From Bacteroidaceae bacterium (lineage in GTDB: Bacteria > Bacteroidota > Bacteroidia > Bacteroidales > Bacteroidaceae), in the NCBI GenBank assembly GCA_017541025.1, contig JAFXZY010000011.1, forward strand, positions 53,604-117,603: a stretch of 64,000 nucleotides of DNA, in the 5' to 3' direction. Positions 10,080-61,698 of the stretch are shown here, in pieces. The translations under genes were made by a program, and so were the position numbers. The notes beneath the pieces were generated by a model that saw nothing but the letters and a program-made list of their open reading frames with translations, was not told the origin of the DNA and made no database searches. Positions within the stretch are counted from its first letter, which is position 1, and each line of letters starts with the position of its first letter.

Positions 10080-13000
10080 ATGAAACGAATCATCTATAGC
10101 ATTTGCGTGTTGCTTACGGCGCTGACGAGCACCGCATCAGCTATAGATGTTCATTATATTGATAAGGTGGAGGAGGTCAGCGTAGAGGTACCAGTAGGCA
10201 ATGCGCCTAGGTTGCCTTACCAGTTATGGGTGACATACTCCGACGGAAAGGGTGAGTACCGACAGGTGAAATGGCTCAACGCATCGGAGGCTTTGGAAAA
10301 AGCCGAGGCTAACCCTGCTATGAATCCTGTGGGTACTATTTATAAGGTACGCGGCTTCATCATTGGCGACAATAGCACACCTAATGGTTTTCCCGTATCG
10401 GCTGACGTAAAAGTTGTGGATTCAAGTTTCAAGATTCAAGATTCAAGTTCCAAGTATCAAGATTCAAACATACTGAAGGCTGAGCCTTTGCCTCTGAATC
10501 AGGTAAGCATCGATGGTGACAACCGCTTGACATGGAACCGCGATCTCGACATTGACCATCTGCTCACGCTGCCCGTAAAACAGCAATTGTATAATTACCG
10601 CGATACATACGGTCTTTCTACCGAAGGGTATCCAGAAGCTGACGGCTGGGACTCGCCTACCACAAAGCTCAAAGGGCACGGCTCAGGACACTACATGTCG
10701 GCCTTGGCATTTGCTTTCGCCAGTTGTCAGGATGCCGCAAAGAAGGCTGCTCTACGCCAGAACATCAAGGAAATGGTGGACGGACTGCGAGAGTGTCAGG
10801 AGCGTACATTTGTCTGGAACGAGGAATTGGGGCGCTATTGGGAAGCACGCGACTTTGCTCCCGAAGAGGAACTGAAGCAGATGCAAGGCACATGGGCTGA
10901 TTTTGATAAATACAAAAAGGAATACCAGAAATATGGTTACGGTTACCTTAACGCCATTCCTGCCCAGCACTGTGTACTGATTGAAATGTATCGGGCTTAC
11001 AACAACGAGAGTTGGGTGTGGGCACCTTATTATTCCGTTCACAAGCAACTGGCTGGACTCATAGACATTGCCACCTATATCGATGACAAAGAGATTGCCG
11101 ACAAGGCGTTGCTCATTGCTAAGGATATGGGCCTATGGGTATGGAACCGACTGCACTACCGCACATACGTCAAGAGCGACGGCCCACAGAATGAACGTCG
11201 TTCCCATCCGGGCAATCGCTACGAAATGTGGAATATGTACATTGCCGGTGAGGTAGGGGGGATGGCAGAGTCTTTGGCGCGTCTGTCGGAGATGACAGAC
11301 AATGCAGAGGATAAAGCACATCTCCTTGAGGCCGCCACCTATTTCGATAGTCCGGCATTCTTCGATCCTCTGTCTAAGAACATTGACGCCATCCGTACAC
11401 GTCACGCCAACCAGCACATACCTATGGTGACAGGGGCGCTGCGTGTCTATCGCGGCAACAATAATCCGTATTATTACAACCTTGCCCAGAACTTCTGGAC
11501 GATGATTCAGGGTCGTTACCGCTATGCTATGGGCGGCGTGGGTAATGGCGAGATGTTCCGTCAGCCCTATTCGCAGATTACCTCCATGCTTCCTGAGCCT
11601 ACCCTTAACGAGACGTGCTGCGCCTATAACCTGGCAAAGCTCACGAAGGACCTTAATTGCTTTAATCCCGACGATGCCCGATATATGGACTACTACGAGC
11701 GTCTGCTTTATAACCAGATTATCGGCTCCGTGAATCCACGTAAGTATCAGACTGTCTATCAGTATGCTGTGGGATTGGATGCCTCCAAACCTTGGGGCAA
11801 CGAGACACCTCAGTCCACCTGCTGCGGTGGCACAGGAACTGAAAACCACGTAAAGTACCAGGAGGCAACATACTTTGTCAGTTCCCCCTCTATGGGAGGG
11901 GGCCAGGGGGAGGCTTGTCTATGGATCGCCCTCTATATGCCCACCACTGCCTACTGGGCACAACAAGGCGTTATCATCAAACAAGAATGCCAATGGCCTG
12001 CCGAACGCTCAACCATACGAATTATACCTAATTCAAGTTCCAAGTTTGCCACTTCGTTCTCGCTTTTAGCTCGCGACCCCTTCGGCGTTCAGGTTTCAAG
12101 TTCCAAGAACCATAATTCTCAATTCTCAATTGTCAATTCTCAATTTTCAATTAAATTCCGCGTTCCCTATTGGGCAACAGAAGGTTTTGACATCAAACTC
12201 AACGGCAAGAGCATCGCACGCCATTATCAGCCCTCCAGCTATGTGGAGATTCCTGCACGGAAATGGAGTGAGAAAGACGTGGTGGAGGTCGTTATGCCGT
12301 TTATCAGGCATATCGACTATGGTCCCGACAAATTGGAGGGCCATTGGGTAGGCGCTTTTATGCGTGGACCGCTTGTAATGGCTGCCACAGGCATTAGTAC
12401 GTGGGACGAAGCCACCGTAGATGCAGACCACGATCTAAGCTCTTTCATCCCCGACTATGATGGCGACCAGCACCTGACTCACTACTTCCGTTTACGCGAT
12501 GATTCGCTCTCGGTTCATAATGAACAATTAAGAATTAACAATGAACAATTAACCGATTCTCAACTTTCAACTTTCAATTCTCAACTTTCAACTCTCCAAG
12601 AACTTCTTCTCATTGCCAAAAGCCGTGCCGATGAGCAACAGGCATGGGAGGCACTTGCTGTGAAGGTGCCGGAATATGCTCCTTGGGCTAAACATGGCTA
12701 TGCCCGTATGATTGAACAGATGAAAAAGGCACAGTCTATTATGGATGCCCCCAAAGACAAGTATAGTCAGGAGGAGATAGACAATGTCGTCGATGCACTG
12801 AACGCCGTTATCAACACCATGCGCCCAGGCAATCTGGCTGAAGTGGAGGATTTAGAAGAATTGAAACAACTCGTTGATAAAGCCAAAAGTCAACTTAAGA
12901 TTCAAGTTTCAGGTTTCAAGATTCAAGATTCTCAAGTATCAACTCGTCAACTAAAAACCAACTCTCAACTCAGCACCCCCCCAAGGGAAAGGATGGAGGG

Positions 13001-46283: not shown

Positions 46284-48221
46284 TTATTTCTTTGCTGCAA
46301 GCTCTTCTTTCAGAACTTTTATCTCTTTTTTCATATCGTTCATATCCGCCCACATCTGATACAGATTCTTGAATAAGGCGCTGGACTTCCAGAAAGTCCT
46401 GGCGTCAATAGCCGGCGTACCTTGTACGGCTGTTCCTGGTTTCTTTATACTGTTTGGGATACCGGCCTGTGCTCCTGCCATGGTCTTGTCTGCAATGGTA
46501 GCGTGTCCGGCAATACCAACTTGACCGCCAAACATACACCATTCTCCAACCTTGGTGCTGCCGGCAATACCAACTTGTGCTGACATAACAGTGTGGCATC
46601 CAATCTCATCGTTATGGGCAATCTGTACCAAGTTGTCCAGTTTCACCCCTTTATGTACAATTGTCTCACCCATGACAGCTCGGTCTACGCATGTGTTGGC
46701 ACCAATCTCCACATCATCCTCAATAACTGCAATACCTATCTGAGGTATCTTGATGTATCCTGCCTCTGTTTGCTGGAAACCAAATCCGTCAGCTCCAATC
46801 ACACAACCTGCATGCAGGATACAGTTGTTGCCTACTTTACAATCATGATATATGACGGCATTGCTGTATATTTCTGTGTTGTTGCCTACTTTTGCGTTTC
46901 TGCCAACGGTTACATGAGGATGGAACACACATCCGTCGCCAATCTCCACACCTTCGGCAATGGCAACAAAGGGACCAATGTAGCAATCTTTCCCGATTTT
47001 TGCTGTTGGGTCGATGAATGCCAGTTCGCTGATGCCTTGTCGTTTAGGCTTCATGCTTTCGTAAATCTGGAGCAGTTTTGCAACAGCCTCTCTGGCGTTG
47101 TCGACTTTTATCAGCGTAGCCTTTATCTCTTGTTTGGGCTCAAAATTACTGTTGACGAGTACTATACTACTTTCTGTATCATAGATGTATTGCTCGTATT
47201 TGTCATTGGCAAGGAAACTGATACACCCAGATTTCCCTTCCTCAATCTTTGCAAAGTTATTAACTGTTACCTTAGGGTCACCAACAACGGTTCCACCAAT
47301 AAGGCCTGCTATCATTTCTGCACTAAATTCCACCTTAATATAAATTTGTCTAATCTCTAACCTCTCAACTAAAAGAGCCATCTGTTGCTGAACCTCTTTG
47401 GCTTTTTCGCCAGCAACCGTGGCAAAGTTTTCTGTATTGTCTGCATAGATAATGGCTCTGCTGCTGTTTACAATCAGACCACAGTCATCTATCATTCCGT
47501 ATTTGCATACTTCTTCAAGACTACCGCCTTGTGCACCTATGCCGGGAACAAGGAGGAACGCTTTGGGGGCAACCTTGCGGATGTCCTTGAACATTTCGCC
47601 GCGTGTAGCGCCCACAACATACATCATGTTCTCGTCATTTCCCCACTCCTGGCTCTTGCGGATTACTTTCTCAAACAGACGCTCTCCGTCTTTGTCCTCT
47701 GTAAGCTGGAAATCAAAGGAACCCTTGTTGCTGGTCAGCGCCAGCAGAATTACCCAGTGGTTCTTTGTGGCTCCCTCGCCTTTGGAGAGGGCTGGGGTGA
47801 GGCTTTCTAGGAAGGGTGTGACGCTGTCTTCTCCCATATATGGGGCAACCGTCAGAGCATCCACATCATATTCGCCAAAGAAAGTGCGGGCATACATCTT
47901 GCTGGTGTTACCGATATCCCCACGTTTGGCATCTGCTATGATGAACTGGTCGGGATAGTTCTCCTTTAGGTATTTTACTGTCTTCTCAAATGCTATCATG
48001 CCTTTCACCCCAAATGCTTCGTAAAATGCCAAATTAGGCTTGTATGCCACACAATAGGGAGCTGTGGCATCTATGATAGCCTTGTTGAAAGCAAATATGG
48101 GATCTTCTTCCTTCAGCAGATGTTCAGGAATCTTCTTTAAGTCAGTATCCAAACCAACGCAGAGGAAACTCTGCTTCTTCTTTATGTTTTCAAATAATTC
48201 TTTCCTTGTCATAACTTTCAA
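46284..48221 (-). CDS. pyrF-lpxD: PyrF-LpxD fusion: orotidine 5'-phosphate decarboxylase joined to UDP-3-O-acylglucosamine N-acyltransferase
   Basis: One uninterrupted 645-codon frame contains two enzymes. Residues 1 to about 282 are PyrF of the long type-2 class ([28 protein letters not shown] with the catalytic Lys/Asp set, VPGIGAQGG). Residues about 297-645 are LpxD ([14 protein letters not shown], then hexapeptide repeats, catalytic His in [10 protein letters not shown]). The joint ([14 protein letters not shown]) is encoded by DNA resembling a heptamer tract (GGTTAGA, GATTAGA). Val297 is GTG at 47331-47333 in the place where LpxD normally has its ATG, so LpxD may also be made separately from that GTG. 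PyrF also carries an in-frame GC-rich hairpin insertion at residues 140-153. A sequencing or assembly error at the joint cannot be excluded. Confidence 0.88.
47771..47802. repeat. GC-rich hairpin repeat inserted in frame in pyrF
   Basis: The segment CTCCCTCGCC-TTTGGAGAGGG with CTGGGGTGAGG encodes [11 protein letters not shown] on the minus strand, between TPFLE and the core strand [13 protein letters not shown]. The peptide is the well-known translation of a dispersed hairpin repeat seen in many bacterial genomes. The insertion is about 14 codons long and keeps frame. Confidence 0.8.
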
Positions 48222-48286
48222 CTTTCAATTTTCCAACTTTCAATTTCCTAACTTTCAATTTCCCAACTTTCAACTTTCAACTTTAC
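48212..48286. repeat. heptamer tract between prfA and pyrF
   Basis: About ten units alternating AACTTTC and AATTTTCC/AATTTCC fill the whole 61-bp gap between the prfA stop (48283-48285) and the pyrF start (48221). The last unit overlaps the prfA stop codon. Confidence 0.85.
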
Positions 48287-49392
48287 AACGCTGCTTCTTT
48301 CATTCTTTCTGCATTTTCTGCCACAATCAGGTGGTCTATGCAGTCTTGTATCTGTCCGTCCATAAAGGCGTTCAAATTATATATGGTATAGCCAATGCGG
48401 TGGTCTGTGATACGTCCTTGAGGATAGTTGTAGGTGCGTATTTTGGCAGATCTGTCGCCTGTTGAAACCATGGTTTTTCGCTTTGATGCAATATCGTCCA
48501 GGTATTTCTGGTGTTCCTTATCATATATAAATGTGCGCAGGCGCGCGAGGGCCCGTTCCTTGTTTTTGGGCTGGTCACGCGTTTCGGTACATTCTACAAG
48601 AATCTCTTCATCTTCGTTGGTGAAGGGGTTGCGCCACATGTATCGGGCACGAACACCGGATTCTACCTTGTTCACATTCTGACCGCCCGCTCCACTGCTT
48701 CGGAAAGTATCCCATTTGATGGCACCTTCGTTAATCTCCACGTCAAACTCTTCAGCTTCGGGTAATACAGCTACGGTAGCTGCACTGGTATGAACACGTC
48801 CCTGAGTTTCTGTAGCAGGAACACGTTGTACACGGTGAACGCCGGATTCATATTTCAGAATTCCATAAACGCCTTCGCCTGTTACGCTGAAGATGATTTC
48901 CTTGAATCCGCCGACGGCACCTTCCGAGAAACTGCTCACAGCCATCTTCCAGCCTTTCAGTTCTATGTACTTGCTGTACATACGGAACAGGTCGCCGGCA
49001 AACAGGGCAGCCTCATCACCACCTGTACCGCCTCGGATTTCCATGATGACGTTCTTGTCGTCTTCGGGGTCGGCAGGGATGAGCAGCAGTTTTATTTCCT
49101 CTTCCAGTGCAGGGATTCGTTTCTCGCTTTCTGCCATTTCCTCGCGCAACATCTCCTTCGTGTCGGCATCTTCCTCTATGGCAAGCATCTCCTTGGCATC
49201 CTCGATATTCTGCAGACAACCTACGTATTCCTTCCGGGCAGCAACAATTTTACCCAGGTCCTTATATTCCTTGGTCAGTTTTACGTAACGCTTTTGGTCG
49301 GCAATTACGGAAGGGTCCGTGATAAGCGTACTCACTTCCTCGTATCGGGAAACAAGTCCTTCCAGTCTGTTTAAAAGATTATTTTCGGCCAT
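48283..49392 (-). CDS. prfA: peptide chain release factor 1
   Basis: The 369-residue protein has the RF1 codon-recognition tripeptide PAT in RVQRVPATETQGRVHTS and the peptidyl-tRNA hydrolysis loop RSSGAGGQNVNKVESGVR with the GGQ motif. It ends translation at UAA and UAG. The N-terminal coiled-coil domain is present. It is part of the purM-prfA-pyrF run; the small upstream gene ends 8 bp before its start. Confidence 0.96.
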   Translation of the reverse strand: MAENNLLNRLEGLVSRYEEVSTLITDPSVIADQKRYVKLTKEYKDLGKIVAARKEYVGCLQNIEDAKEMLAIEEDADTKEMLREEMAESEKRIPALEEEIKLLLIPADPEDDKNVIMEIRGGTGGDEAALFAGDLFRMYSKYIELKGWKMAVSSFSEGAVGGFKEIIFSVTGEGVYGILKYESGVHRVQRVPATETQGRVHTSAATVAVLPEAEEFDVEINEGAIKWDTFRSSGAGGQNVNKVESGVRARYMWRNPFTNEDEEILVECTETRDQPKNKERALARLRTFIYDKEHQKYLDDIASKRKTMVSTGDRSAKIRTYNYPQGRITDHRIGYTIYNLNAFMDGQIQDCIDHLIVAENAERMKEAAL

Positions 49393-53634: not shown

Positions 53635-53700
53635 TGGCGGTTAGGGGTTAGTGGTTAGCGAACACCGCGGTAGCAAATTCTTCACTCTTCATTCTTCATT
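53635..53700. repeat. two heptamer tracts between ubiE and aroE
   Basis: 53637-53659 is three GGTTAGN heptamers (GGTTAGG, GGTTAGT, GGTTAGC). 53677-53703 is four CTTCATT/CTTCACT heptamers. They fill most of the 75-bp gap between the two genes. Confidence 0.85.
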
Positions 53701-53702
53701 CT

Positions 53703-54434
53703 TCACTTTGAAGCCAGATACATGGTGCAGAGGCCAAAAGTAAAACGTTTCCATTCTATTTGTAGAAAACCGGCTTTCTTCAGTATTTCTTCCATCACTT
53801 CTCCTTGCGGAAAGGCTTCCATCGAAGAGGGCAGGTATGTGTATGCGCTGGCATCGTGACTGATAAGCTTTCCGATAACAGGCATCACGACATGAGCATA
53901 TACCCAGAAAAGCTGTTTCATTGGAAAATGGGGTGGAGTGCAGAGTTCCACTATCAGCAGATGCCCACCTGTGCGCAGTACACGGCACATTTCGGAAAGT
54001 CCGGCATCCAAATCTTGAAAATTACGTACGCCGTATGCTGATGTCACGGCATCGAAACTTTCGTCTGGAAAGGAAAGGTGCATGCAGTCTTCTCTCTGAA
54101 ACGAGATAATATTCTGCATGTTTTTCTTCTTGACTTTTTCGCGCCCTACGGTCATCATTCCTTCGCTGATATCAGCTCCTATAATCTGTTGGGGTTGAAT
54201 GCGTTTGGCACTTAGGATGGCAAAGTCTCCTGTTCCTGTGGCAATATCCAGTATGCGTCTGGGGTGGTGAACCTTCAGGGCATCGATGGCCTTGCGTCTC
54301 CATCCTCGGTCTATGCCCAGAGAAAGGGCGTGGTTCAGGAGATCGTAAGAGTGAGCAATGTGGTCGAACATTTTCTCCACTTGCTCACCCTTCTCCCCTT
54401 CGTGATAGGGATTTATTGTCTCCTGCTTGTACAT
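53703..54434 (-). CDS. ubiE: demethylmenaquinone methyltransferase
   Basis: The start at 54434 ([15 protein letters not shown]) gives 243 residues and a TAATG overlap with the purC stop, which supports it over the ATG at 54452. The class I methyltransferase motifs are [17 protein letters not shown] and GADISEGMM, with [21 protein letters not shown] at the N-terminus, the UbiE/MenG family signature. In this anaerobe it would methylate demethylmenaquinone. Confidence 0.95.
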
Positions 54435-58060: not shown

Positions 58061-58116
58061 TGGCTCTAGCCAAATAGGGTATTGGCTCTAGCCAAAAGGG
58101 GAAATGGCTCAAGCCA
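58061..58116. repeat. three-unit 22-bp-period array of TGGCTCTAGCCA palindromes
   Basis: Perfect or near-perfect 12-bp palindromes lie at 58061 and 58083 (TGGCTCTAGCCA) and 58105 (TGGCTCAAGCCA), exactly 22 bp apart. The 10-bp spacers differ (AAATAGGGTAT type). The array is in the convergent gap between the glycine-rich gene and the DMP19 gene. Apart from this and the array at 57917, nothing else was recognised in the 351-bp gap. Confidence 0.88.
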
Positions 58117-58855: not shown

Positions 58856-59557
58856 ATGGTTTATTCACACGAAGTACAAAACATGTGTTGCGTGGCAAAA
58901 GGCCCCAACCATGGTCCTGCTCCCATTCCAGAAGAAGGTAAGTGGGTACAGGCAAAGGAGATTAAGGACATAAGCGGTCTGACACACGGTATCGGCTGGT
59001 GTGCTCCACAGCAGGGTGCATGCAAACTGACCCTCAACGTAAAGGACGGCGTTATTGAAGAGGCTTTGGTTGAGACTATCGGTTGCTCTGGTATGACTCA
59101 CTCTGCTGCTATGGCAAGCGAGATTCTGCCTGGCAAGACCATTCTTGAGGCTCTGAATACCGACTTGGTTTGCGATGCTATCAACACAGCTATGCGTGAG
59201 TTGTTCCTGCAGATTGTATATGGTCGTACACAGAGTGCCTTCTCTGAGGGTGGCCTGATGATTGGTGCCGGTTTGGAAGACCTGGGTAAGGGTCTTATCT
59301 CTCAGACAGGTACCTTGTATGGTACCAAGGTTAAGGGTACCCGTTACCTGCAGCTGACCGAGGGTTACATCACCAAGATGTATCTGGACAAGGACGATCA
59401 GGTTTGTGGTTACGAGTTCGTTCACATGGGCAAGTTCATGGATGCTATCAAGAAGGGTATGCCCGCAGACGAGGCTTTGAAGAGTGTTACAGGTACCTAT
59501 GGCCGTACAAAGGCTGAGGATGGTGCTGTTAAGAGTATTGACCCACGTAAAGAATAA
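58856..59557 (+). CDS. NifU-like iron-sulfur scaffold-type protein
   Basis: The 233-residue protein has an IscU/NifU-like core. The likely cluster or metal ligands are Cys in IGWCAPQQGACKL, ETIGCSGMTHSAAMASE and NTDLVCDAINTAM, the three Cys positions of NifU-type scaffolds. The remainder (GLMIGAGLEDLGKGLISQTG and a C-terminal KSVTGTYGRTKAEDG) is specific to this family. It occurs next to a GGGtGRT protein, as it does here, so the two probably act together, perhaps in building or delivering a metal cluster. The partner reaction is unknown. Confidence 0.82.
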   Translation: MVYSHEVQNMCCVAKGPNHGPAPIPEEGKWVQAKEIKDISGLTHGIGWCAPQQGACKLTLNVKDGVIEEALVETIGCSGMTHSAAMASEILPGKTILEALNTDLVCDAINTAMRELFLQIVYGRTQSAFSEGGLMIGAGLEDLGKGLISQTGTLYGTKVKGTRYLQLTEGYITKMYLDKDDQVCGYEFVHMGKFMDAIKKGMPADEALKSVTGTYGRTKAEDGAVKSIDPRKE

Positions 59558-59570
59558 TCTCATTTACCAT

Positions 59571-59599
59571 TGAGCTATTTACCATTTACCATTTAAGTT
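59571..59599 (+). repeat. left heptamer tract of the four-helix-bundle unit
   Basis: ATTTACC-type heptamers (ATTTACC, a variant, ATTTACC, ATTTACC, ATTTAAG) end one base before the start codon at 59601. Their sequence is the reverse complement of the tract on the other side of the gene. Confidence 0.85.
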
Positions 59600-59600
59600 A

Positions 59601-59972
59601 ATGGAAAGCATTGAACTGAGATTAAGGTTAAAGGAATTTGCTATCCGTATTATAAAAATGGTAGATTGTATGCCCAGGACAATTTCGTCCGACGCTATAG
59701 CAAGACAAATAATACGTTCAGGCACTTCACCATCGGCTAATTACAGAGCTGCACTTTTGGGAAAATCCGATAAGGATTTCCTGAACTAGTTAAAGATGGT
59801 TGAAGAGGAACTTGACGAAACACTTCACTGGTTGGAAATCATTATGGAAACAGAAATGATGAAACCTGAAAGGTTGCAAGACTTGCACAATGAATGTCAT
59901 GAATTGTTAAAGATTATTGTCAGCACAATTATAATTATGCGGAATAAGATTAACGATAAAACATTATGGTAA
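59601..59972 (+). pseudogene. four-helix-bundle (23S rRNA intervening-sequence/bS23-type) protein gene broken by a nonsense codon
   Basis: The frame from 59601 encodes IELRLRLKEFAIRIIKMVDC, RQIIRSGTSPSANYRAAL and GKSDKDFLN, then stops at TAG (59787-59789). The same frame continues without further stops to TAA at 59970-59972, encoding LKMVEEELDETLHWLEII and a helical end. Family members read NKLKxVEEExDET at this place, so one base change (AAG to TAG) explains the break. The readthrough length of 123 residues is normal. These proteins are known from 23S rRNA intervening sequences, and their Avd relatives take part in diversity-generating retroelements. Here the gene splits the NifU-like/GGGtGRT pair and is flanked by heptamer tracts. 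Confidence 0.88.
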
Positions 59973-60025
59973 ATAGTATGGTAATAGGTAAAAGTATTAA
60001 ATGGTAAATGATTAAATTGTAAATA
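59967..60025 (+). repeat. right heptamer tract of the four-helix-bundle unit
   Basis: TGGTAAA/GGTAAAT-type units (TGGTAAA, TGGTAAT, AGGTAAA, TGGTAAA, TTGTAAA) start on the stop codon of the pseudogene and end 5 bp before the start of the GGGtGRT gene. They are the inverse of the left tract. Confidence 0.85.
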
Positions 60026-60030
60026 CTATT

Positions 60031-61050
60031 ATGATTAGAGAAGTAAAATTCGAGTCACAAGACCGTCGTATCAAGCAGATTCTTGCTTGTTTGAACGCAC
60101 ACGGCATTGCTTCCATCGAGGAGGCTAACCAGATTTGCGAGGCTGCTGGCCTTGATCCATACAAGACCTGTGAGGAAACACAGATGATCTGCTTCGAGAA
60201 TGCTAAGTGGGCTTACGTAGTAGGTACTGCTATTGCTCTGAAGGAGAAGGCAAAGGATGCTGTTGAGGCAGCTAACTATATCGGTGAGGGTCTGCAGAGT
60301 TTCTGTATTCCAGGTTCTGTAGCTGACGACCGTAAGGTTGGTATCGGCCACGGCGAGCTGGGTGCTCGTCTGTTGTCTCCCGACACCAAGTGTTTTGCAT
60401 TCCTGGCTGGTCACGAGTCATTTGCTGCTGCCGAGGGTGCTATCAAGATTGCTCAGATGGCTAATAAGTCAAGACCAGCTGACAAGCCCCTCCGTTGTAT
60501 CCTGAACGGTCTGGGTAAGGATGCTGCTATGATTATCAGCCGTATCAATGGTTTCACATACGTACAGACACAGTTCGACTACTTCACAGGCGAGCTGAAG
60601 GAGGTTAAGCGTATTGCTTACTCTAACGGTCCCCGTGCTGCTGTTAACTGCTATGGTGCTGACGATGTTCGCGAGGGTGTAGCTATCCTTTGGAAGGAGG
60701 ATGTAGATGTTTCTATTACTGGCAACTCTACCAACCCCACACGTTTCCAGCATCCCGTTGCCGGTACATACAAGAAGGAGCGTATTCGTGCTGGTAAGGC
60801 ATACTTCAGCGTAGCCAGTGGTGGTGGTACAGGTCGTACCTTGCATCCCGACAACATGGCTGCAGGTCCTGCTTCTTATGGTATGACCGACACCTTGGGT
60901 CGTATGCACTCAGATGCACAGTTCGCCGGTTCAAGCTCAGTACCTGCTCACGTAGAGATGATGGGCTTCCTGGGTATTGGTAACAACCCAATGGTTGGTT
61001 GTACCGTTGCTTGTGCAGTACAGGCTGACTTGTATCTGAACAAGAAGTAA
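60031..61050 (+). CDS. GGGtGRT family protein
   Basis: The 339-residue protein contains the name-giving motif ASGGGTGRTLHPDNMAAG. Other conserved parts are GIGHGELGARLLS, GHESFAAAEGAIKIA, CILNGLGKDAAMIISRINGF and GFLGIGNNPMVGCTVACAVQ. I know the family only by this motif and by its co-occurrence with the NifU-like protein upstream. No catalytic mechanism has been assigned to my knowledge. The regular glycine-rich loops suggest nucleotide or cofactor binding, as an inference. A terminator follows at 61085. Confidence 0.88.
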   Translation: MIREVKFESQDRRIKQILACLNAHGIASIEEANQICEAAGLDPYKTCEETQMICFENAKWAYVVGTAIALKEKAKDAVEAANYIGEGLQSFCIPGSVADDRKVGIGHGELGARLLSPDTKCFAFLAGHESFAAAEGAIKIAQMANKSRPADKPLRCILNGLGKDAAMIISRINGFTYVQTQFDYFTGELKEVKRIAYSNGPRAAVNCYGADDVREGVAILWKEDVDVSITGNSTNPTRFQHPVAGTYKKERIRAGKAYFSVASGGGTGRTLHPDNMAAGPASYGMTDTLGRMHSDAQFAGSSSVPAHVEMMGFLGIGNNPMVGCTVACAVQADLYLNKK

Positions 61051-61358: not shown

Positions 61359-61414
61359 TGGCTCGAGCCAAAAAGGGATTTGGCTCGAGCTAATGCCCCT
61401 TTTGGCTTGAGCCA
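61359..61414. repeat. three-unit 22-bp-period array of TGGCTCGAGCCA palindromes
   Basis: Units at 61359 (TGGCTCGAGCCA), 61381 (TGGCTCGAGCTA) and 61403 (TGGCTTGAGCCA), exactly 22 bp apart. The palindrome is closely related to the one at 58061-58116, 3.3 kb away. Confidence 0.88.
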
Positions 61415-61698
61415 ATTTGACCTATATAAGTCAAATAGCCTGCTCTTTAGATGATGTAAGGAAGGTAGAGCACAGATTGGCAAACGAAGAAAAAAAGATG
61501 TTGGGAAAGAAGGGAAAATAGGACTATCATATCCCCGTGTTTTGAAAGTATAACGATAAGCCAATAGTCAAAGTTTGCTACCTCGGGAGTCTCGTGTGCT
61601 ATGCCAAGTAGTCTGCACGTGTAGGCTTGAGGAATGTGTAAATGTGAGATAGTCTTTTTTTTGATTTTGTTCCTGTTGTTGAAAAGTTCATAGGAAAA

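Follow-up and report, generated by a model that had tools for sequence, protein, structure and literature searches.

A probable decaying copy of a minute four-helix-bundle mobile element, framed by inverted heptamer arrays, between a NifU-like and a GGGtGRT gene

Results

An interrupted four-helix-bundle gene between inverted heptamer arrays

The window, which is the whole 64,000-nucleotide stretch of Bacteroidaceae DNA analysed here, carries a short four-helix-bundle (FHB) gene between a NifU-like gene and a GGGtGRT gene, with an array of tandem heptamers on either side of it (Table 1). This arrangement, proposed in a first-pass annotation, is recovered by open reading frames (ORFs) and by matches to TIGR02436/PF05635 and PF14057, the NifU_N match of the NifU-like gene (21.4 bits) falling just below the cut-off of 22; a NifU-like gene stands upstream of the GGGtGRT gene in all 30 genus loci inspected. 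The FHB frame is interrupted by a single in-frame TAG at 59787-59789, in agreement with its earlier reading as a pseudogene. TIGR02436 recognises the 62-aa front piece with 36.9 bits (cut-off 24), and no Pfam model matches this piece alone; the region reaches 54.6 bits against PF05635 in a whole-genome search, and a close relative carries a copy (L039) whose 123-aa frame is open. FHB is the sole gene seen in the unit, inside which ORF and profile searches find no transposase.

Table 1. Features of the insert and its host genes, in window positions
Feature	Position	Strand	Description
NifU-like host gene	58856..59557	+	ORF and NifU_N; stop codon TAA at the 3' end; upstream of the insert
Left arm	59561..59595	.	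TRF 7-mer array CATTTAC (= ATTTACC), ~4.9 copies
FHB frame (TIGR02436/PF05635)	59601..59972	+	ATG at 59601; TAA at 59970-59972
Right arm	59966..60024	.	GGTAAAT units, imperfect reverse complement of the left arm
GGGtGRT host gene	60031..61050	+	PF14057, 602 bits; downstream of the insert

The left arm begins 3 bp past the stop codon of the NifU-like gene. In the right arm, TRF calls a 7-mer array of TAAATGG (59998-60024) inside a looser period-15 array that spans the arm, and the FHB stop codon is located within one of the GGTAAAT units. That ATTTACC on the left and GGTAAAT on the right form inverted tracts, as first noticed, is upheld by the TRF arrays and by the scores of the two intergenic stretches, 18 as inverted and 5 as direct repeats; dinucleotide shuffles average 10.4 and reach 18 in 6 of 2000. 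The compact unit described earlier stands, with limits nearer 59561-60025 than the 59571-60025 originally assigned. Considered singly, the window locus exceeds chance only to a moderate degree, and the strength of the case comes from the FHB family, in which 82 of 86 genes have matched arms. The source genome has seven PF05635 matches at six loci, all six with inverted tandem arms, each of its own word, as judged by eye. A repeated palindrome of the type TGGCTC(T/G)AGCCAAAA flanks the NifU/GGGtGRT pair on both sides (window 58061-58116 and ~61360-61415).

Filled and empty gene junctions

The GGGtGRT protein was searched in 61 genomes of the genus and matched in 46, and the best 30 loci, the window included, were inspected. 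The two partner genes, which the first-pass annotation expected to be adjacent, are separated by a gap of only 11-44 bp in 26 of the 30, usually containing an AGGAGG-like stretch, and these empty junctions lack the arms as well as the FHB gene; the tracts at FHB-less sites that would have spoken against the first-pass proposal are thus not seen. The other four are filled: besides the window genome, the close relative G051 has the same insert with an open FHB frame; G013 (L045) has the same arms with most of FHB gone, and is taken as an internal-deletion copy because part of the gene remains; G059 has a different FHB gene with a different, AGGTTTT-like word. These fillings imply that arms and gene arrive together and that one junction has been entered twice.

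The junction between etfA and an acyl-CoA dehydrogenase gene measures 0-14 bp in 19 of 30 loci and holds an FHB element in six, which do not amount to six events because their words are related and may be partly inherited. Its other fillings comprise a DUF559 element in one locus (L292), an unrelated small ORF in one, a 138-139 bp GC-rich gene-less hairpin in two, and in one a unit of 267 bp that lacks an FHB gene and has inverted ends built of tandem CGGATTT-type repeats.

A third junction, between a TraM-domain gene and a hypothetical gene, was compared on Nostoc plasmids. Both plasmids of strain C057 (L404, L405) are empty there, the two genes being 52 bp apart. In C052 and N. edaphicum (L290, L403), an FHB element with GGGAACA arms occupies the site, and ATCC 53789 (L402) retains decayed arms but has lost the FHB gene. 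A related FHB gene of Geminocystis (L401) lies at another site with GGGAAAA-type arms. Because the Nostoc plasmid records are complete, an assembly artefact is argued against. By eye, about 40 bp of target appears replaced at the Nostoc site, and no target-site duplication is visible there or at the NifU-like–GGGtGRT loci. Against the proposed mobility, no fresh transposition was caught, as all three FHB pairs above 90% aa identity look same-site. The empty and filled junctions show that arms and gene are present or absent as one unit.

Inverted arms around FHB genes

The inverted-arm score compares the 230 bp upstream of a gene with the reverse complement of the 230 bp downstream, with a threshold of 16. 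Such a score is reached by 82 of 86 FHB genes of the genus (median 28), versus 84 of 688 crossed arm pairs, in which the upstream stretch of one locus is set against the downstream stretch of another (8 random partners per locus), and versus 7 of 229 ordinary genes from the window genome (median 10), a set in which 3 of the 57 genes encoding 90-200 aa do so. The 86 genes were kept from 97 HMM hits, after omission of L005/L007 (the broken copy on C54), partial matches and hits with less than 230 bp of flank; the window copy (L006), which had no HMM match in the genus locus search, is not among them, and 60 extra genus loci were taken as the top by E-value among the matches listed, not at random. 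The earlier expectation of an excess of inverted flanks around such genes is borne out by these counts. Tandem tracts lie on both sides of 55 of the 86 FHB genes versus 8 of 229 ordinary genes, a period of 7 is found for 48 of the 61 upstream tracts and for 47 of the 69 downstream ones, and 40 distinct words occur among 48 upstream arms. In design, the element is a single Avd/S23-type FHB gene with an array of a short, mostly 7-bp tandem word on each side, the two arrays being inverted relative to each other.

Elsewhere in the phylum, which was taken as Bacteroidota, 23 of 30 FHB genes score at least 16 versus 94 of 870 crossed pairs. Among named genomes, from which the best 80 of 580 candidates were taken and 4 of these 80 omitted from the arm count, 58 of 76 do so versus 555 of 5700 crossed pairs. 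By record title, 16 of the same 80 fall outside Bacteroidota and near kin, and 10 of the 14 scorable ones reach 16; these records are metagenome bins, for which a misplaced contig is possible. In complete records of cyanobacterial plasmids, 8 of 35 hit records being examined, five of eight FHB loci reach the threshold and a sixth scores 15. These plasmid genes are framed by tandem intergenic heptamers of the type named STRR, the cyanobacterial heptamer repeats. A Pseudanabaena plasmid (L285, 1486-1845) carries an FHB element with long AAAGCTA-type arrays between cas6 and cas4. Rfam places none of the 20 FHB loci searched, out of 80, in rRNA, and the only RNA that it finds is a 6S RNA in L247. 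FHB genes below the arm threshold (4/86 in the genus, 7/30 in the phylum, 18/76 in named genomes and 3/8 on plasmids) reflect either decay or FHBs that live otherwise.

These data bear on the simplest alternative, in which a slippage-prone genome has common intergenic tandem heptamers that happen to flank immobile FHB genes. Solo tracts are indeed common in the source genome (84 tracts in 348,599 bp); yet chance flanking by common heptamers is contradicted by the crossed-pair control, where arms match their own partners far more often than foreign ones, and the empty sites lack arms and the same design is present in distant bacteria. We regard such a coincidence as highly improbable.

Arm words and protein lineage

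FHB loci are treated as lying at different sites when both flank alignments score at most 60. Both arms are alike (score of at least 18) in all eight different-site pairs above 80% aa identity, which represent four FHB clades; the fraction is 0.61 for the 18 pairs at 70-80% and ~0.01 under 40%. In particular, L129, L131 and L109 occupy three different sites, each opening with an identical GTTGAAA array where the host gene ends. Percentages of arm identity say little alone, since local alignments of unrelated pairs also attain 0.78, although over no more than 24 bp in the median; they were dropped as evidence, and exact repeated words were counted in their place. Of the 18 pairs at different sites with 75% identity or more, 14 have an identical repeated 7-mer on the same strand in their upstream arms (versus 83 of 2642 pairs under 40%), 12 in their downstream arms (versus 134 of 2642) and 11 in both (versus 29 of 2642); four of the 18 close pairs have no exact repeated word common to their upstream arms. 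A new word at every insertion is rejected, as close FHB lineages mostly keep their word at different sites.

At fourfold-degenerate sites, 12 close different-site pairs are only 0.23-0.50 identical. With silent positions so near saturation, the persistence of a word from site to site is hard to explain unless the word is under selection, for which the FHB protein would be the simplest partner. FHB itself is under purifying selection, with dN/dS of 0.03-0.15 in eight of the nine pairs with finite dS (15 were tried and dS was saturated in six; values are rough where dS exceeds 1), and 0.54 in one very close pair that includes a broken copy. The arms of one element match each other though the words differ between FHB lineages. 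At a junction interpreted as ychF–lgt, both arms of L087 carry one and the same word change compared with five relatives. Fold-back templating between arms, together with slippage within arms, would keep them alike in this manner.

Position in host operons and predicted RNA folding

FHB elements lie mostly between co-directional genes. With strands of the two neighbours given relative to FHB, 94 genus loci comprise 65 ++, 16 +-, 3 -+ and 1 --; 80 named-genome loci (the best 80 of 580) comprise 65 ++, 3 +-, 3 -+ and 2 --; and 30 phylum loci comprise 26 ++, 2 +-, 1 -+ and no --, with one open, as is the rest of the other two sets. The sum over the three sets is 156 ++ and 3 --, versus 31 ++, 5 --, 9 -+ and 8 +- (rest open) for 61 short control genes, in a comparison that uses a simple longest-ORF caller for both and in which same-junction loci across species are not independent. 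In loci with both a left tract and an upstream gene called in the same direction, the tract begins a median of 3 bp past the upstream stop codon, between -20 and +31 bp in 52 of 56 cases. For 40 right tracts, the median distance from the end of the tract to the following start is 12.5 bp (range -96 to 309). A clear antisense element (L284) lies between ribonucleotide reductase genes in Nostoc. Related FHB elements occupy different sites, mostly filling the gap from a host stop codon to the next start and nearly always in sense orientation to the host operon.

Predicted RNA folds contain 27-97 arm-to-arm pairs in the 12 first-chosen elements. In samples of 30 each, FHB loci have a median of 40.5 such pairs (range 10-85) versus 9.5 (0-59) for short control genes, so that the ranges overlap. 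Sequence and predicted folds both point to complementary ends that could pair as a stem.

As the first-pass annotation suggested, the protein has kinship with Avd: all three FHB proteins tested, the window copy not being among them, match PHROG 3206, "Avd protein of DGR", with E-values of 1e-7 to 1e-10. The FHB profile also finds two solved structures, 2gsc and 2rld. No catalytic family matches FHB in the libraries searched, and the chemistry must therefore fall to another, unnamed enzyme. A defence role was set aside, as PADLOC gives no match for any of the three FHB proteins submitted.

Sense bias, arm pairing and Avd kinship would also suit an element that acts at the RNA level, as an intervening sequence (IVS) within mRNA. 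Its arms would form an RNA stem cut by RNase III or another nuclease, insulating the host messages, and it would spread through an RNA intermediate and a reverse transcriptase acting in trans. In diversity-generating retroelements, Avd partners a reverse transcriptase, and an IVS of Coxiella of similar size, a 428-nt selfish element with an S23 ORF and complementary borders, is excised by RNase III (PMC4990558). On the other hand, RVT_1 is matched in only 19 of 61 genus genomes; it is not detected in the window's genome (~84% complete) or in any of the five genomes with at least nine listed FHB matches (G005, G045, G046, G051 and G059), although it is present in G050 (eight FHB matches) and G014 (seven), all within incomplete assemblies. 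This distribution weakens retro-mobility by a resident reverse transcriptase, and the Nostoc element L284 is antisense. We consider an RNA-level element unlikely.

Solo tracts, gene-less units and DUF559 cassettes

The earlier proposal of a non-transposase mobile or tract-generating system is supported for insertion as a unit and finds no support for genome-wide tract generation: across 24 genomes, tract density shows no significant rise with FHB number (Spearman 0.30, p 0.15). With genomes that have only weak PF05635 matches counted as having no FHB, the pooled counts are 44 tracts in 786.8 kb without FHB over the cut-off and 107 in 1,084.6 kb with it. Tract density as a by-product of FHB number was rejected, as the near absence of tracts in four genomes without FHB (2 tracts in 387.8 kb) does not carry over to the 24; two genomes, G041 and G060 (stretches L372-L380), have no FHB over the cut-off and 138-210 non-ORF tandem tracts per Mb. 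Because tract density does not significantly follow FHB number, many solo tracts are of other origin or have outlived their elements. Solo tracts match resident arms better than foreign arms in only five of seven genomes, so that a descent of mini-hairpins from resident FHB elements is suggestive only.

Within the window, solo heptamer-type tracts away from FHB lie at 2012-2091, 10419-10467, 12114-12152, 12519-12593, 48213-48289 and 53679-53707. The AATTCTC tract at 12114 has the word of the resident FHB element L004.

Gene-less units of ~80-270 bp with inverted tandem or hairpin ends were observed at L045, L302, L299/L303, L358, L368, L373, L374, L381, L390-L392 and L394, and are probably miniature or dead forms. 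Genes for DUF559, a Vsr-like nuclease (L143-L172; in the source genome L071:5170-5545), have inverted GC-rich near-palindromic ends, for example GCCTCACCCCCGGCCCCTCTCC. Their inverted ends score at least 18 in 23 of 26 loci (4 of 30 omitted at contig edges) versus 137 of 650 crossed pairs, a crossed rate that arises because the ends of different DUF559 loci resemble one another. DUF559 cassettes look like a second small mobile family, and at least one of them occupies an insertion junction common to FHB elements, that of etfA and acyl-CoA dehydrogenase.

The sharing of this junction by FHB elements, a DUF559 nuclease element and gene-less hairpin units could also be understood if a transposase or nuclease encoded elsewhere recognised hairpin-like ends, FHB being cargo with some host benefit. 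Of 21 inverted tract pairs in 1.94 Mb, 12 are gene-less compact hairpins (a simple A-rich run among them), which such an enzyme would accommodate. A trans-acting enzyme should, however, prefer one end sequence, whereas the 40 words among 48 upstream arms follow the FHB lineage, and the DUF559 elements have ends of a different, GC-rich type. We judge this explanation quite doubtful.

Discussion

We propose that the feature in the window is probably a decaying copy of a family of minute FHB mobile elements of ~450-550 bp, IVS-like in kind, in which the FHB protein would recognise the arms of its own element. Copies that have arms and a deleted gene look like its miniature or dead forms. As a kind, the element is closest to IVSs, and it would deserve a class of its own if the pairing of FHB with word is confirmed. 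Like 23S rRNA IVSs, it combines a protein of the S23/IVP family and a similar size with complementary stem-forming ends around the gene, a patchy distribution and decaying copies. Unlike them, it sits at protein-gene junctions rather than in rRNA, such as NifU-like–GGGtGRT in the window, it ends in tandem arrays of a heptamer that changes from lineage to lineage, and up to 17 FHB matches occur in one genome among the matches listed. It shares an Avd-type protein with diversity-generating retroelements and differs from them in having no reverse transcriptase. Terminal inverted repeats are a feature that it has in common with insertion sequences and MITEs. MITEs, REP/RAYT and foldback elements resemble it in being short, in having inverted ends that contain tandem sub-repeats, and in having gene-less derivatives; unlike these, the FHB unit has no transposase and its end sequence varies by lineage.

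Several components have been described separately. The resemblance of Avd to PF05635 has been noted (PMC10053308), and an FHB gene between a guanylate kinase gene and a nadD-type gene appears in two Flavobacterium columnare genomes (PMC5524665). In crystals, S23 forms a homopentamer, and its function is described as not established (PMC4990558). In one Xanthomonas genome, 186 GGGAATC repeat sites were counted, with inverted neighbours in 70 cases, and these repeats are reported as in general not associated with mobile elements (PMC4692102). TAACTGA heptamers occur in Beggiatoaceae, cyanobacteria and Bacteroidetes, reportedly with no evident transfer mechanism (PMC4679880). The STRR, GGGAATC and TAACTGA heptamers of cyanobacteria and xanthomonads are likewise intergenic tandem heptamers, and the papers cited here do not appear to link them to FHB genes. 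Among the papers listed by searches of titles and abstract openings, in a literature with most subscription papers outside it, none links heptamer arrays or tandem inverted ends to FHB/S23 genes. The framing of FHB genes by heptamer arms is real, general and, in the literature searched, apparently unreported.

Mechanistically, we envisage that the arms fold back into a hairpin, in RNA or in single-stranded DNA, and enclose the gene as a loop, which is the arrangement of 23S rRNA intervening sequences. An FHB oligomer would recognise the arms of its own lineage, as a hairpin or as an array, and this recognition, which we infer from co-variation, would be the reason why word and protein change together. 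The FHB-arm complex may let the element enter transcribed gene junctions by means of host replication, repair or RNA-processing enzymes. Slippage within the arms and fold-back templating between them would then account for changes in copy number and for the matching of arm to arm.

A broader and more tentative extension, which we think possible but would not yet favour, is that these elements represent a widespread transposase-free mobile class, in which an Avd-like FHB protein and the heptamer arrays at the ends form a co-evolving recognition pair with one word per lineage. Many orphan heptamers of Bacteroidota, cyanobacteria and perhaps xanthomonads would then be ends, miniatures or fossils of such elements.

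If this is true, the S23/IVP protein would act as a mobility factor, working through hairpins and host enzymes in place of a transposase. S23/IVP proteins have solved structures and reportedly no known function (PMC4990558), and the intergenic heptamers of cyanobacteria, Xanthomonas and Beggiatoaceae are reported with no mechanism yet settled (PMC4692102, PMC4679880). Joining the two gives each a testable role, the protein as an end-binding mobility factor and the repeats as its ends. The lineage-specific word would be a ready candidate for a binding code, and junctions that are empty in one species and filled in a related one would serve as natural before-and-after pairs.
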